Assembly (NCBI RefSeq): GCF_001570365.1
Contig: NZ_BBYK01000044.1
Span: 62,001-126,000 of the forward strand
Direction of reading: 5' to 3'
Origin: Microtetraspora fusca
Lineage (GTDB): Bacteria; Actinomycetota; Actinomycetes; Streptosporangiales; Streptosporangiaceae
Length of the DNA: 64,000 nt
Part shown: piece after piece, positions 13,303 through 17,999 of the stretch
Layout: every line of letters starts with the position of its first letter
Numbering within the stretch: the first letter of the stretch is position 1
Program-made: the position numbers and the translations under genes
Notes under the pieces: generated by a model
Told to the model about the DNA's origin: nothing
What the model saw: only the letters and a program-made list of their open reading frames with translations
Database searches by the model: none

Positions 13303-15006
13303 TCAGCCGGCCGTGGCGCGCCGGCAGCGGGCCAGTGCCGCACGCAGGTCGCGTCGCAGTGCCCGGTCCAGGCCGGGCTGGGCGAGGGCGTCGGCGAAGT
13401 CGCGGGCGGCCTCGTCCCACCGCTCCAACCGCATCAGGGCCGTACCCCGGTTGTAACGGGGCACCGGCGCCGGCGACAGCGCCACCGCCCGGTCCAGGTC
13501 GGCCACGGCGGCGGCCACGTCGCCGCGTTCGAACCGGACGGCGGCCCGGTTCGTCCATGCCTCGACCAGCTCCGGATCCCCGGCCAGGGCCCGGGTGAGC
13601 AGCTCGTCGGCTTCGGCGAGGCCGCCGCGCTCCGAGCGGATCAGCCCGAGGGTGCACAGCAGCGCGGGCTCCTGCGGGGCCAGCGCCAGCCCGGCTCGCG
13701 CGCCCTCCTCGGCCGCGTCGAGCGCGCCGCGCTCCACCTGCAGGTTGACCAGGGCGATCCGAGCGTCGAGGTGCCCGGGGTCGATGGCGAGCACCCGCTC
13801 CAGGTCGTTTCGCGCCGACTCCGGTCGGCCCCGCTCCTGCTGGAGCACGGCGCGGTTGTAGTACGCCTCGGGCAGGTGCGGTCCGAGGCGGATCGCGGTG
13901 TCATAGTCCTTGATCGCGGCCTGGGAGCGACCCGCCGCCCGGTGCAGGGCGGCCCGGTCCACGTAGTACTCACAGTTGTCGGGGTCGTGTGCGATCACCG
14001 TGTCGAGGTCGGCCAGGGCCTGTTCCGGGTCGCCCAGGGCCAGATGCACCTGTGCCCGGTTGTGGCGTAACCGAGCCAGATCCTGCGGACGCTCGCCGGG
14101 AGCGAGCACCGCCGTCAGTCGGGCCAGCCCGTCGTCGATCAGCCGCAGCGCGCGGGCAGGCTCACCCTCCCTGCTGTCCAGCAGCGCCAGACCCTGCTCG
14201 TAGAAGACGGTGGACAGCACCCGCTGCCGCGGGTCGTCCAGTCCGGCGGCGAGGTGGAGCGCCTGTTCCAGCCAGTGCCGCGCCTGCGCCTGGTCCTGCT
14301 CGGCCGCCGGCAGGTGCCTGGCGTACAGCATGGCGGTGGCGTACGCGGCCGACATGGTGATCTTGGGGTCGTCAGTGGCGGCGCGCGCCTCGTGGTAGAG
14401 GTCGAGAGCCTCGGCGGCGCGGTCCAGCGCCGCGAGGGCGGTGGCCAGGCCGGTGGTGAACGCCCACCAGTGCCGCAGATCGCCCTCCGGCGTCACCATG
14501 GCGCGCCCGCGCGAGGCGACTCGGGCCGCGTGGTGGTAGAAGCCGCGGGCCAGGCTGTCGCCCAGGGCCGTGCGTATCGCCTCCGGCGTCGGGTCGGCCG
14601 CCACCGGCTCGCGGGCGCCGCCGTCGCGCAGGTCCAGGCGCAACGGGGACGATCCGACCCGGCGGGTCAGCGCGTCCAGCAGTTCGCGGGTGGTCTCGTC
14701 GGCATCGGCCACGTGGTCGAACCGCACGGTGACCGGGTGCCGGAGCGTGTCCGCCCAGGCCCCTGCGAACTCGGCGGCGCCGTACGCCAGACAGGCGGTG
14801 CGCCGGGCGGGATGGAACCGGATCGGCTCCTCCTCAGCCGCCGGTCGCGCCACGGGGTCGAGCCAGGGGGCGATGGCGTACAGCTCGACCTTGTGGCGGG
14901 ACGCCAGACGGGGACGGTCGGCGGCGATCCGGCCGAGAAAAGCCGCGACCCCGGCGTACGGCCCGTGGTCGCGATGGCAGTCGTACCCGCTGTGCTCGTC
15001 GGTCAC
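13303..15006 (-). CDS. TPR-repeat protein downstream of a Trp-rich peptide gene
   Basis: A large protein built mostly of tetratricopeptide repeats. An N-terminal helical/alpha-beta domain (about the first 160 residues) is followed by at least eight TPR units, for example NRAQVHLALGDPEQALADLD, YNRAVLQQERGRPESARNDL and YNRGTALMRLERWDEAARDF. There is no helix-turn-helix, signal peptide or kinase motif. I prefer GTG at 15006 (567 residues). A GTG at 15096 is also in frame and would make the gene overlap the peptide gene at 15062-15145, implying translational coupling. TPR proteins of this type bind peptides or proteins; a link to the adjacent small peptide is inference. Confidence 0.8.
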   Translation of the reverse strand: MTDEHSGYDCHRDHGPYAGVAAFLGRIAADRPRLASRHKVELYAIAPWLDPVARPAAEEEPIRFHPARRTACLAYGAAEFAGAWADTLRHPVTVRFDHVADADETTRELLDALTRRVGSSPLRLDLRDGGAREPVAADPTPEAIRTALGDSLARGFYHHAARVASRGRAMVTPEGDLRHWWAFTTGLATALAALDRAAEALDLYHEARAATDDPKITMSAAYATAMLYARHLPAAEQDQAQARHWLEQALHLAAGLDDPRQRVLSTVFYEQGLALLDSREGEPARALRLIDDGLARLTAVLAPGERPQDLARLRHNRAQVHLALGDPEQALADLDTVIAHDPDNCEYYVDRAALHRAAGRSQAAIKDYDTAIRLGPHLPEAYYNRAVLQQERGRPESARNDLERVLAIDPGHLDARIALVNLQVERGALDAAEEGARAGLALAPQEPALLCTLGLIRSERGGLAEADELLTRALAGDPELVEAWTNRAAVRFERGDVAAAVADLDRAVALSPAPVPRYNRGTALMRLERWDEAARDFADALAQPGLDRALRRDLRAALARCRRATAG

Positions 15007-15061
15007 GGTCGGGCCGATCGCCGCAGGGGCGGGCGCCCGGGAGCGCCCGCCGTGCCGGCAA

Positions 15062-15145
15062 CTACCAGCACCACTCGATCCAGAGACGACGGGCACCGGA
15101 CAGCAGGCGCAGCCCGGCCTTGCGACGGACGGTCATCTTCCTCAT
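15062..15145 (-). CDS. 27-residue Trp-rich peptide, possible RiPP precursor or leader peptide
   Basis: An overlooked small gene: ATG at 15145 is preceded by GGAGG with a 5-6 base gap and the frame closes with TAG at 15062. The peptide begins MRKMTVRRKAGLRLLSG and ends ARR-LWIEWCW, so a strongly basic N-terminal half is followed by seven residues holding three Trp and one Cys. No signal peptide is present. Its stop overlaps the longest possible frame of the TPR gene, so the two are probably cotranscribed. It could be a precursor whose aromatic tail is cross-linked, a signalling peptide, or a Trp-codon attenuator leader. No P450, radical-SAM or cyclase gene is adjacent. Confidence 0.6.
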   Translation of the reverse strand: MRKMTVRRKAGLRLLSGARRLWIEWCW

Positions 15146-15286
15146 GAGCACCTCCGCTTGATCCACTTCAGGACTGGCCCGAGCATAATCCGACACAACG
15201 GAAATAAATAGACACCTTTCACTTACGTCAGGCCATGCTCATGCGGACGGGATGCGTCTGCGGGCAGGCGCGGACGCCGGATCTGG

Positions 15287-15882
15287 TCAGCCGTCGTCCA
15301 GAGTGAGCAGGCCGCGCCGGAAGGCGACGGCGACAGCGGCCGCCCGGTCGTTGACGCCGAGCTTTGTGTAGATGTGCAGCACGTGGCTCTTCACCGTGGC
15401 CTCACTGATGAACAGGCGCGCGGCGGCTTCGCGGTTGGTGGCGCCCTCGGCGATGAGGTGGAGGACCTCCAGTTCCCGGGCGCTCAGCGGGTCGGCGGGC
15501 GCGCGGACCTGGCCGAGAAGACGGGTGGCGACCGACGGGGACAGCACGGCTTCGCCCCGCGCCGCCGTACGGACGGCACGGATGAGCTCGTCCCGGCCGG
15601 TGTCCTTGAGGAGGTAGCCGGTGGCGCCGGCCTCGACGGCGGGCAGGACGTCCCTGTCGGTGCCGTACGTGGTGAGGATGAGGACGCGGGCCGCGACGCC
15701 CAGCCTGGCGAGTTCCTTGATGGCCGCGACGCCGTCCATCCTGGGCATGCGGAGGTCCATGAGGATCACGTCGGGGTTCAGCGCCCGCGCGAGTTCGACG
15801 GCCTGGGCGCCGTCCCCGGCCTCGCCGAGCACCTCGAAGTCCGGGGTCGATGACTGCCATGGCTCAAGCATCTTTCGCCTGC
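15287..15882 (-). pseudogene. NarL/FixJ-type response regulator lacking its N-terminus
   Basis: From about 15850 leftward the frame encodes most of a LuxR-type response regulator. It has the phosphoacceptor block DVILMDLRMPRMDG, the receiver end LKDTGRDELIRAV and a complete C-terminal HTH (LSARELEVLHLIAEGATNRE, then LFISEATVKSHVLHIYTKLG). The first 30 or so receiver residues, carrying the acidic Asp pair and first helix, are absent. The frame opens upstream into unrelated sequence, and the best in-frame ATG (15871) gives MLEPWQSSTPDFEVLGEAG. No histidine kinase precedes it, as expected if a deletion removed the kinase and the start of this gene. The HTH could still be expressed. Confidence 0.7.
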
Positions 15883-15971
15883 GCCCGGGGCGAATCGATC
15901 TGCCGGCCATACTCGTCCGCGAATGCTGCTGACCCGAAAATCCACCGTTCGGTGGATGCCGCCGAAGAGCC

Positions 15972-16100
15972 CTACGAGGCAGGCGGCGGTTCCAGAAGGT
16001 CGACGTTGACACCGGGACCACGGCGTTCGGCTTCCTGGTAGGCGAGCCAGGCCAGGGCGAGGTCCTGACAGAGGAAGCAGCGCAGGCGGATGCCGGTCAG
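15972..16100 (-). pseudogene. Fragment of a small CxxC protein
   Basis: About 40 codons in a minus-strand frame read RLRCFLCQDLALAWLAYQEA and then continue to a stop at 15972. The sequence looks coding (CxxC followed by an amphipathic helix). However, no ATG, GTG or TTG with a ribosome-binding site precedes it, and the frame begins at the end of the response regulator gene. It is probably a remnant left when the adjacent response-regulator region was deleted. Function unknown. Confidence 0.35.
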
Positions 16101-16741
16101 GTAAGACCTGCGTCGTGAGCGAGGAGCGCGATCTGGGTGCGGTTGTCCAGGCCGAGCTTGGTCAGGATGCTGGAGACGTGGGCTTTCACGGTCGTGATGC
16201 CCATGACGAGATCGGCGGCGATGTCGGCGTTCGTCCTGCCCCGGGCGATCGCCAGCGCCACCTCGTGTTCGCGCGGGGTGAGTGCGGCCAACGCGGCGCG
16301 AGCACGCTCGTAGGCGCCGGCCTGGGCGACTGTTCGATCCATCAACCGCCGGGTGATGCGCGGGGACAGAATCGGGTCTCCCGCGGCGACCCGGGTGATC
16401 GCTTCCACGATCTGCGGCGGCGAGGTGTCCTTGAGCAGGAACCCGGCGGCGCCTGCGCGGAGCGCGTGCAGGACGTTCTCATCCGTGTCGAACGTGGTCA
16501 GCACGATCACCTCGGGCGGCCGGGCGCGGGCACGCAGTCGGCGGGTGGCGGTGATGCCGTCCACGCGGGGCATCCGCAGGTCCATCAGGACGACGTCGGG
16601 GGCGTGGGCGTCGGTGGCGGTGATGGCCTCCTGGCCGTCCGCCGCCTCGGCGACGACGGTGATGCCGGCGGCGCCGTCGAGCATCATGGACAGCCCGGCG
16701 CGGACCAGGGCGTCGTCGTCGACAAGTAGCACGCGGATCAC
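16097..16741 (-). CDS. NarL/FixJ family response regulator
   Basis: A complete 214-residue response regulator. The receiver has acidic Asp8-Asp10 in VLLVDDD, phosphoacceptor Asp54 in VLMDLRMP and a LuxR-type HTH at the C-terminus (LTPREHEVALAIARGRTNAD, then MGITTVKAHVSSILTKLG). I choose GTG 16741, which overlaps the kinase stop by four bases (GTGA); an ATG at 16750 is the alternative. It is the cognate partner of the histidine kinase encoded immediately upstream. The pair likely controls the exporter operon (DUF6069-like plus ABC genes) transcribed divergently from 18000. Confidence 0.9.
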   Translation of the reverse strand: MIRVLLVDDDALVRAGLSMMLDGAAGITVVAEAADGQEAITATDAHAPDVVLMDLRMPRVDGITATRRLRARARPPEVIVLTTFDTDENVLHALRAGAAGFLLKDTSPPQIVEAITRVAAGDPILSPRITRRLMDRTVAQAGAYERARAALAALTPREHEVALAIARGRTNADIAADLVMGITTVKAHVSSILTKLGLDNRTQIALLAHDAGLT

Positions 16742-17868
16742 GCCGGCCATGGTAGCCAGGCCTGGAGCCGGAACTCTCCGTCGGTGGTGTGGTGGTCCAG
16801 TTGCCCGCCGGCCAGCCGTACCCGCTCGGTGAGCCCGACCAGGCCGAGCCCGCTGCCCGGCGCGAGGGGGGCGGCGTCCGCCGGGGGCAGCGGGTTGCGG
16901 ACGTCGATCAGCAAGGGTGTGCCGGGAGCGCCGCGCAGCAGCACCTCGACCTGCCGGCCCGGGGCGTGCTTGCGGGCGTTGGTCAGGCCCTCCTGCACGA
17001 CGCGGTACGCGGTCCAGGACACGGCCGCCGGCAGGGCGGCGACGTCGGTGGCCTCCTCGCGCAGCCGTACCGACTGGCCCGCCTGCCGTACGTCGGCGAT
17101 CAGGCCGGCCAGGTCGGCCAGGCCCGGCCGGGGTTCCAGCTCGTCCACTTCGTCGTCCTGCTCGTGCAGCAGGTTGATCACCTGGCGCAATTCCTCCAGC
17201 GCCTGGTGCACACCGGCGCGGACCACCCCGGCGGCGCGGGCGAGCTGGTCGGGAGAGGAGTCGGGGCGGTATTCCAGTGCCCCGGCATGCGTGGCCACCA
17301 GAGACAGGCGGTGGGCCAGCACATCGTGCATCTCTCTGGCGAGCCGGCGGCGTTCGGCCATGCGGGCCTCGGCCACCTGCCTGCCTTGTTCGGCCTCGGC
17401 GCGGTGGGCGCGTTCGCGCAGGGAGATGAGCAGGGCGCGGCGGGAGCGGGTCAGCGCACCCCAGCCGAGGAGCGCTCCGTAGGAGGCACAGATCAGCAGC
17501 AGCCACCAGCCGAGGGAGATACCGGAGTTCGGTCGCCACAGCCCCTGGACGACGTGTGCCGCCATGCCTGCGGCGGCCACCGCGGCTGCGACGGGGAAGC
17601 GCCTGCGCTGGGCCACCTGCAGCGCCCCCATCGACGCCGCCGGCGTGGCCACTGGAGAGAGCGTGGCAAGGAGGGTGGCGGCCAGTGCCCCGGAGGTCGG
17701 CCACCGCAGCTGGGCGAGCGCGGCGACCATGCTCACCGCCGCGACCGCGATGTCCAGCCCCCACGTGGGCCGGCCGGCCTGGGCCCACAGCGCCACCGCG
17801 GTCAGCGCGCCCATCCCGAGGACCACGCCGGCCACCGCGACCACGTACGGAGGCTGGATCTTGCTCAT
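16738..17868 (-). CDS. NarL-type sensor histidine kinase
   Basis: The 376-residue kinase has four to five membrane helices in its first 135 residues and little periplasmic sequence. A HisKA_3 dimerisation domain follows with phospho-acceptor His181 (REMHDVLAHRLSLVATHAG), then a HATPase_c domain with GSGLGLVGLTERV near residue 340. The membrane-buried sensor suggests detection of a membrane or cell-envelope signal. It is cotranscribed with the response regulator gene, which starts on its stop codon. The start is ATG 17868, leaving 131 bp to the divergent gene at 18000. Confidence 0.9.
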   Translation of the reverse strand: MSKIQPPYVVAVAGVVLGMGALTAVALWAQAGRPTWGLDIAVAAVSMVAALAQLRWPTSGALAATLLATLSPVATPAASMGALQVAQRRRFPVAAAVAAAGMAAHVVQGLWRPNSGISLGWWLLLICASYGALLGWGALTRSRRALLISLRERAHRAEAEQGRQVAEARMAERRRLAREMHDVLAHRLSLVATHAGALEYRPDSSPDQLARAAGVVRAGVHQALEELRQVINLLHEQDDEVDELEPRPGLADLAGLIADVRQAGQSVRLREEATDVAALPAAVSWTAYRVVQEGLTNARKHAPGRQVEVLLRGAPGTPLLIDVRNPLPPADAAPLAPGSGLGLVGLTERVRLAGGQLDHHTTDGEFRLQAWLPWPA

Positions 17869-17999
17869 CGGCCCAGGTTAGTCGGCGGTACGGCGGAGCC
17901 ATCACCTACCAAAGTCGGACCCGTACCCCACAGGGGAAGGACAGGGCGCGACCTCGCGCCCGATGTGGCAGACCGGGCCGGCGGGCGAAGCTGACCGAC

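Follow-up and report, generated by a model that had tools for sequence, protein, structure and literature searches.

The window, that is, the whole stretch of 64,000 nucleotides of Microtetraspora fusca DNA that was analysed, carries on its minus strand a gene encoding a TPR protein and, in front of it, a very short gene whose product ends in a tryptophan-rich tail. The features of the locus are the following.

Positions 13303 to 15006, minus strand: gene of the TPR protein, 567 aa when read from GTG 15006, with an N-terminal region of about 140 aa followed by a TPR solenoid.
Positions 15028 to 15051, minus strand: 9-bp GC-rich stem-loop between the peptide stop and the TPR gene, paired in 26 of 26 sequences.
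Positions 15062 to 15145, minus strand: peptide gene, 27 residues (MRKMTVRRKAGLRLLSGARRLWIEWCW), from ATG 15145 to a TAG ending at 15062.
Positions 15151 to 15155, minus strand: Shine-Dalgarno (SD) sequence GGAGG of the peptide gene, 5 nt 5' of the ATG.
Positions 15156 to 15215, minus strand: upstream block CATATTTC .. GATTATGCTC .. CCTGAAGTGGATCAC, similar in relatives (by eye, unscored).

The original prediction of a small gene with this start, SD sequence and stop, and with the tail LWIEWCW, was borne out by the sequence and by the conservation described below. The peptide terminates in RRLWIEWCW and its longest uncharged run (without K, R, D, E or H) is five residues; peptides of this type, hereafter WCW peptides, are basic and Trp-rich, with a median net charge of +6. 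When the SD-preceded short ORFs of the whole 64-kb window were counted on both strands, 76 were obtained (alternative starts counted apart), five of which had at least two Trp among their last eight residues, two of the five being alternative starts of one ORF. A Trp tail alone is therefore no evidence for a gene. No Pfam or NCBIfam model matched the window peptide, and none of eight family peptides scanned against NCBIfam matched a model. The block at 15156-15215 looks promoter-like, together with a 5' untranslated part.

Further upstream of the peptide, positions 15287-17868 (minus strand) encode a histidine kinase, a response regulator of the NarL type and another such regulator, which overlaps ORF 16097-17905. 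The ORF of the first regulator may be without a normal N-terminal part. Related ORFs were seen at two Microtetraspora loci and are not general.

Conservation of the short gene and its TPR neighbour

In a peptide search of 100 genomes, the window's own included, four others gave a match (E 3e-10 to 1e-11, 81-93% identity) and every remaining match had an E value of 0.1 or worse; a plasmid search with the window peptide gave no match. When the N-terminal 300 residues of the TPR protein served as query, with a cut-off of 1e-6, matches were found in 160 of the 341 genomes of the taxonomic family that were searched. Close TPR orthologues (at least 76% identity) occupied 17 loci among these 341 genomes, the window's included, and at all 17 the peptide was encoded beside the TPR gene, with 55-142 nt between its end and the point where the TPR match begins. 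A second scan, which overlaps this set, returned 79 loci (the best 80 of 151 candidates). The peptide was present at 25 of its 26 close loci, and the remaining one, L081, is truncated by the edge of its contig, where the bases CTGGTAA fit the end of the same peptide gene. The conservation of the tail beside this TPR family, for which a homologue search had been proposed, was thus found in both sets of loci.

The WCW peptide and its TPR gene were found in Microtetraspora, Streptosporangium, Nonomuraea, Spongiactinospora, Micromonospora and Hamadaea. Their distribution is patchy: the WCW-type TPR branch is present in 17 of the 341 family genomes, and within the window's genus the peptide was found in three of four genomes and is absent from one. 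GGAGG precedes the peptide in the WCW loci listed for the 79-locus set.

The selection set comprised 30 peptide genes (25 from the 79-locus set, that of the window and four more that are possibly duplicates), corresponding to 26 distinct DNA and 22 distinct peptide sequences. The length is always 27 codons, and the mean dN/dS was about 0.25 over 323 usable pairs, a value to be taken as a description and not as a test since the rows are related. The peptide consensus is M R/K K M T V/I R R .. R L .. S G A R R L W I/F/M E W C W. Within the WCW branch the tail RR[LI]W[IFM]EWCW is fixed, and residues M4, R7, R13, L14, A18, R19, R20, W22, E24, W25, C26 and W27 are invariant in 26 loci (the 25 and the window). 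Neither a lack of conservation nor decay by frameshift, named beforehand as arguments against the gene, was encountered. On these sequence comparisons, in which conservation is decisive, the overlooked 27-residue gene is confirmed as real, and its product is a small protein that is both conserved and constrained at the protein level.

The structural model of the TPR protein had a pLDDT of 90 and a pTM of 0.82, and a fold search gave TPR solenoids among the matches listed (top 50). The N-terminal region of about 140 residues showed a weak AAA_16 match (0.032), and a Walker A motif was found in none of 84 TPR relatives. No DNA-binding domain or HTH was matched in the TPR protein, nor did it match any RiPP enzyme. 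Its relatives in the 79-locus set (the best 80 of 151 candidates) measure 520-651 aa from match start to stop.

The TPR frame had been thought able to overlap the stop of the peptide gene, and this held in part: the ORF is open back to an in-frame GTG at 15096, overlapping the peptide gene, while the start seen in many relatives fits GTG 15006, which no SD sequence precedes. At L088 and L089 (Hamadaea) and at L080, the nearest in-frame starts (ATG-GTG or GTG-GTG) lie within the last codons of the peptide gene, which leaves the TPR start unsettled. Coupled translation of the peptide and TPR genes is plausible, and their overlap may add to the DNA conservation at the end of the peptide gene. Tandem 15-nt units, each with an in-frame GTG, were observed at the TPR start of L040 / L071 (Nonomuraea pusilla); these six in-frame GTGs at 15-nt steps represent a natural multiplication of start codons.

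Related peptide-TPR loci and the three-gene class

Where the TPR protein is a more distant relative (about 30-41% identical in its N-terminal 300 residues), the place of the peptide is taken by other short peptides, of the types SVIHKG, SPKHVG/SAKHLP and PRHCG. Over all classes, a peptide matching the fixed start pattern was found at 77 of the 79 loci (the best 80 of 151 candidates), the exceptions being L081, cut by the contig edge, and L135, where the peptide has seemingly been lost. An N-terminal segment K-K-[IM]-x-[VI]-R-[RK]...R-L is common across the family and the tails are class-specific. On the TPR tree (84 rows), the tail classes require five changes, for a minimum of four and a shuffled mean of 35.5; this is a quick tree with only one three-gene locus, and linked genes would share a tree even if they did not act together. 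At L135 (Nonomuraea maritima), no peptide gene was found and the DNA upstream of the TPR gene is unlike that of sister species, which is perhaps a natural loss of the peptide gene.

At the genome level, a KPG-type peptide profile (E<=0.01) matched 157 of the 160 TPR-positive family genomes, a figure that was obtained by comparing lists by eye and that reports co-occurrence in a genome, not gene adjacency genome by genome. The three TPR-positive genomes without a match were G035, G106 and G301; eight TPR-negative family genomes had weak matches (E 0.003-0.009), and many family genomes have two or three peptide matches. Outside the taxonomic family such peptides are rare, with matches in 5 of 296 phylum genomes; two of the five, the window's genome and G434, belong to the family, and the other three matches look unrelated. 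A wider leader profile matched 26 of 394 class genomes (16 family members, then G073, G434 and G572, and seven with weak matches), and the TPR profile matched 19 of the 394. The window's genome itself contains at least three peptide-TPR pairs, with the tails EWCW, SVIHKG and SAKHHA. An ORF for a different TPR protein (566 aa; L213:9392-11092, contig C67) sits just upstream of the SVIHKG pair, on the same strand.

A further class, the KAG peptides, was found in the outgroup and in some family genomes. These peptides read MKKIxVRKAGxVRLT followed by an aromatic/Cys tail, such as ANANSLYAPFSCWPF, AAACSIYKNVS, SAAQPLYVCYQ or AMACYCYGCCCCGGRAAI. Between their peptide and TPR genes lies a third gene, which encodes a protein of roughly 400-470 aa with an HExxH motif (13 of the 13 proteins examined). 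The profile of this protein, searched in 36 chosen genomes, gave 14 places at E<1e-120 in 13 genomes; all 14 adjoin a family peptide, and the TPR gene follows at each (nine by clustering, five by TPR matches). Nine three-gene loci had been fetched for having the HExxH protein, and these counts say nothing of its frequency.

Hydrophobic stretches in the sequences were the sole basis for taking the HExxH protein as a membrane protein, and the Pfam M50 model PF02163 matched one of three proteins (0.069, below the cut-off); the protein is probably a protease of the M50-like type. Its first 80 residues matched PF05402 (PqqD) in 4 of 10 members (best 0.037) and lasso_PqqD_Strm in 2 of 10 (best 0.0026, 17.9 bits versus a cut-off of 70), and RsmI_C, an unrelated HTH family, matched the same N-terminus in 5 of 10 (best 0.004). 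A PDB search with this N-terminus returned the lasso RREs TfuB1 (0.24) and TbiB1 (0.87) among 12 matches, of which the top two were unrelated, designed proteins. An RRE assignment falls below every curated cut-off, and the N-terminus may be called weakly PqqD/RRE-like.

A divergent ORF was present at 9 of the 14 three-gene loci, encoding a SARP-type regulator (BTAD + NB-ARC) in the one scanned. A gene for an FMN oxidoreductase (PF00724 in the single case scanned) came after the TPR gene at 4 of the 14 loci, too few for it to be retained as a component of the system. Two bridging loci were recognised: one on the Streptomyces plasmid NZ_CP109482, with a ...MRKISVRRTEPIKVTSAPFSHQPAIVPV peptide, protease and TPR genes, the peptide and the HExxH protein both being annotated hypothetical, and one in which MKSTTKIKKITVRRTSDVRLTSATCQCTYPAAN occurs with protease and TPR genes. 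At L211 (G073), the family peptide has an extremely Cys-rich tail, AMACYCYGCCCCGGRAAI, and the genes of the HExxH protein and of the TPR protein come after it.

Neighbourhood of the WCW loci and the intergenic stem-loop

A position-weight score over residues 2-16, trained on the other classes, favours the WCW peptide over its shuffles. With training on 51 other peptides or on 12 KAG peptides, the score of the window peptide was reached by 74 and 25 of 200,000 shuffles, respectively, and that of the Micromonospora form by 4 and 0. The WCW scores are far below those of the training peptides, and the test is not wholly independent, the bridging peptides (L278 and the Streptomyces plasmid) having been included, shortened, in the training set.

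A first clustering of neighbours, from which pairs of at least 97% identity had been left out, was blurred (one cluster of 1422 ORFs from all 80 loci), and matches were therefore recounted at 100 bits or more. At 27 WCW loci, no ORF outside the peptide-TPR region reached this score in more than four other loci or in more than three genera. No homologue of the HExxH protein was found at any of the 79 loci (the best 80 of 151 candidates). Among the 36 genomes searched for it, 14 are WCW genomes; a close HExxH protein is encoded in four of these, at a KAG locus apart from the WCW one, and in none of the other ten. A P450 haem motif was found neither in the whole window (by motif scan, which is weaker than a profile search) nor at 26 WCW loci (from the best 80 of 151 candidates; up to 6 kb on each side, shorter at L069, L081 and L088). 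A shared P450 or other tailoring gene, for which a search at homologous loci had been proposed, was revealed neither by the haem-motif scan nor by the neighbour recount. A single Nonomuraea KPG locus was scanned; its upstream genes were GNAT and EamA-type, and the similar upstream ORFs that recur in Nonomuraea loci are read as plain synteny.

Two distant HExxH homologues occur in the window's genome, both beside other ORFs (judged by the ORF layout), one of them sharing a contig with the third peptide-TPR pair at a distance of more than 120 kb. On this layout, a trans-acting protease in this genome was rejected. These homologues, L280 (C60:10316) and L281 (C64:104689), and the related L282-L285 all have just upstream an ORF that ends in a CxxC-type tail (6/6 loci), and apparently represent another peptide-maturation system.

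The stem between the peptide stop and the TPR gene pairs in all 234 cells of the 26 sequences (one alignment). Two pairs are changed on both sides (three cells) and six never vary; among 500 shuffles, 11 reach as many two-sided pairs and none as many such cells. A consensus fold recovers the same main stem. An alternative stem, formed by the A-R-R codons of the peptide with the 5' arm, pairs in 97% of cells, but in the same alignment of 26 sequences it shows no compensatory change and equals the shuffles. Mutually exclusive covarying stems were rejected, as only the stem after the stop covaries.

The three Trp codons had suggested an attenuator, in which Trp and Cys codons would sense charged tRNA and the stem-loop would control transcription of the TPR gene. 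A leader ORF that has a Trp-rich end and is followed by a GC-rich stem-loop paired in every sequence, and whose A-R-R codons can pair with the 5' arm of that stem, has the appearance of such a device. However, no T-run follows the stem, the alternative stem behaves like its shuffles, the N-terminal residues are conserved to about the same degree as the Trp codons, and homologous peptides without Trp precede homologous TPR genes. An attenuator role is not supported by these results and is considered extremely unlikely. Stem-loops located after the precursor genes of peptide natural product operons set the precursor in excess. Most likely, the stem-loop would here be a partial terminator or processing element, giving more peptide message than TPR message.

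Possible roles of the peptide-TPR pair

The reading that we favour, with about an even chance of being correct, is that the peptide would be a RiPP-like precursor and the TPR protein its dedicated cognate partner. The basic N-terminal half, shared across the family, would most likely be the recognition segment, and the C-terminal tail, branch-specific yet fixed within the WCW branch, the functional product or signal. From the strict pairing and from what TPR solenoids do, the TPR protein would be the cognate binding partner. In three-gene loci, the HExxH membrane protein would probably bind the leader and cut the peptide; in the WCW and KPG branches, which have no HExxH gene at the loci looked at, maturation may be absent or supplied from elsewhere.

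The RiPP-like reading gains indirect support from the homologous three-gene loci, with their HExxH protein and its weakly PqqD/RRE-like N-terminus, and confidence in it is lowered by the fact that RsmI_C matches this N-terminus as well as PqqD does. With regard to leader and core, a shared N-terminal segment and class-specific tails were found, the division into leader and core being a predicted one; a putative maturation enzyme, the HExxH protein, is encoded in the KAG loci, and none was found among shared neighbours of the WCW loci. RiPP cores usually vary more between species than the WCW tail, and this counts against the reading, as do the absence of any RiPP-enzyme match for the TPR protein, the absence of any shared neighbour beyond the peptide and TPR genes at WCW loci and the presence of a close protease in only 4 of the 14 WCW genomes. 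The original idea of a precursor with a partner protein is therefore retained in part: the two-gene pair stands and an HExxH protein is present at homologous loci, but no shared tailoring gene was found at the WCW loci by the haem-motif scan or the neighbour recount.

According to PMC10885120, M50 proteases act on RiPP precursors, namely EpeP, and TglG and TmoG as C-terminal cutters. Like the epipeptide system EpeX/EpeP and the pearlin systems (TglG, TmoG), the present family has a short encoded peptide, a shared N-terminal segment, C-terminal residues as the probable product and, in three-gene loci, a membrane HExxH protein. In contrast to them, no radical SAM or PEARL-type partner was noticed here; the protease has its own weakly PqqD/RRE-like domain and a TPR gene beside it, and the WCW branch is without protease. 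The biphenomycin cluster resembles the locus in combining a precursor peptide with a protein, BipC, first annotated as TPR; in PMC12707348, however, BipC is described as an arginase, and three further enzymes belong to that cluster (an MNIO, a radical SAM enzyme and a TldD-like protease), of which no counterpart was noticed in the present loci. P450-crosslinked aromatic peptides (tryptorubin/atropopeptides, biarylitides) have short precursors with an aromatic C-terminus. The WCW peptide is alike in both respects, and differs from them by the lack of a P450 haem motif in the window and at the 26 WCW loci (from the best 80 of 151 candidates). A literature search found no description of these peptides, within the literature covered.

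Peptide signalling of the RRNPP kind had also been evoked. As given in PMC10075063, the RRNPP criteria are a propeptide of 10-100 aa, a Sec or SHP/PptAB-type signal, a receptor of 250-500 aa, TPRs in it, and adjacent genes. A 27-aa peptide, TPRs in the partner and adjacent genes agree with this description, whereas two of the five points do not, as no Sec-like signal is seen and the putative receptor has 567 aa. The peptide gene directly beside the TPR gene and the tails specific to receptor branches are likenesses; the missing HTH match and the occurrence in actinomycetes instead of Bacillota are differences. RRNPP is the closest two-gene logic to the peptide-TPR pair, but only an analogy, the peptide having no signal-like hydrophobic stretch.

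A signalling pair unrelated to RRNPP but similar in design, with the tail as a pheromone-like ligand, intracellular or exported, and the TPR protein as its receptor, is possible, on the doubtful side. It would account for a two-gene minimal unit without shared enzymes, for paralogous pairs with different tails in one genome, such as the three of the window's genome, and for a tail class that tracks the TPR tree; the ORF divergent from 9 of 14 three-gene loci, SARP-type in the one scanned, would also fit. It agrees less well with a peptide lacking a secretion signal, with a TPR protein lacking any DNA-binding match, and with a tail nearly identical across two actinomycete families, unlike diversifying pheromones. 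Alternatively, the peptide could serve the TPR protein as a small structural subunit or as a cofactor, without being processed, since its conservation spans the whole peptide, its length is constant and no HExxH-type processing gene occurs at the WCW and KPG loci of the 79-locus set (the best 80 of 151 candidates); we find this unlikely, as related loci encode a membrane HExxH protein, a probable protease, beside the peptide. Still less probable, indeed very improbable, is a toxin-antitoxin-like pair in which a cationic, membrane-active peptide would be neutralised by the TPR protein. The basic, Trp-rich composition, the strict pairing with a binding-type protein and the patchy distribution in two families would be expected of such a pair, but the sister classes SVIHKG and SPKHVG have no Trp-rich tail and the sole defence-library matches fall within the TPR region (PrimPol model).

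We give a minor share of our confidence to a further proposal. The loci would form an unrecognised actinomycete family of peptide-receptor couples, of which one genome can hold several paralogous pairs and in which fixed tail codes (EWCW, SVIHKG, SPKHVG, ...) would be read by their own TPR proteins with a dead ATPase-like head. The origin of these couples would lie in a RiPP-like cassette (leader, RRE-protease, TPR) that had lost its protease.

About half of the family genomes searched (160/341, TPR bait) carry a unit of the peptide-TPR type. If the peptides are RiPP-like, genome mining would gain a new precursor leader, KK[IM]x[VI]R[KR]...RL, as well as a new architecture of protease. If they are signals, peptide communication with TPR partners would be brought to actinomycetes. 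Peptide-receptor couples, if true, would mean peptide signalling in this phylum, for which the quorum signals known are typically small molecules according to PMC10075063.
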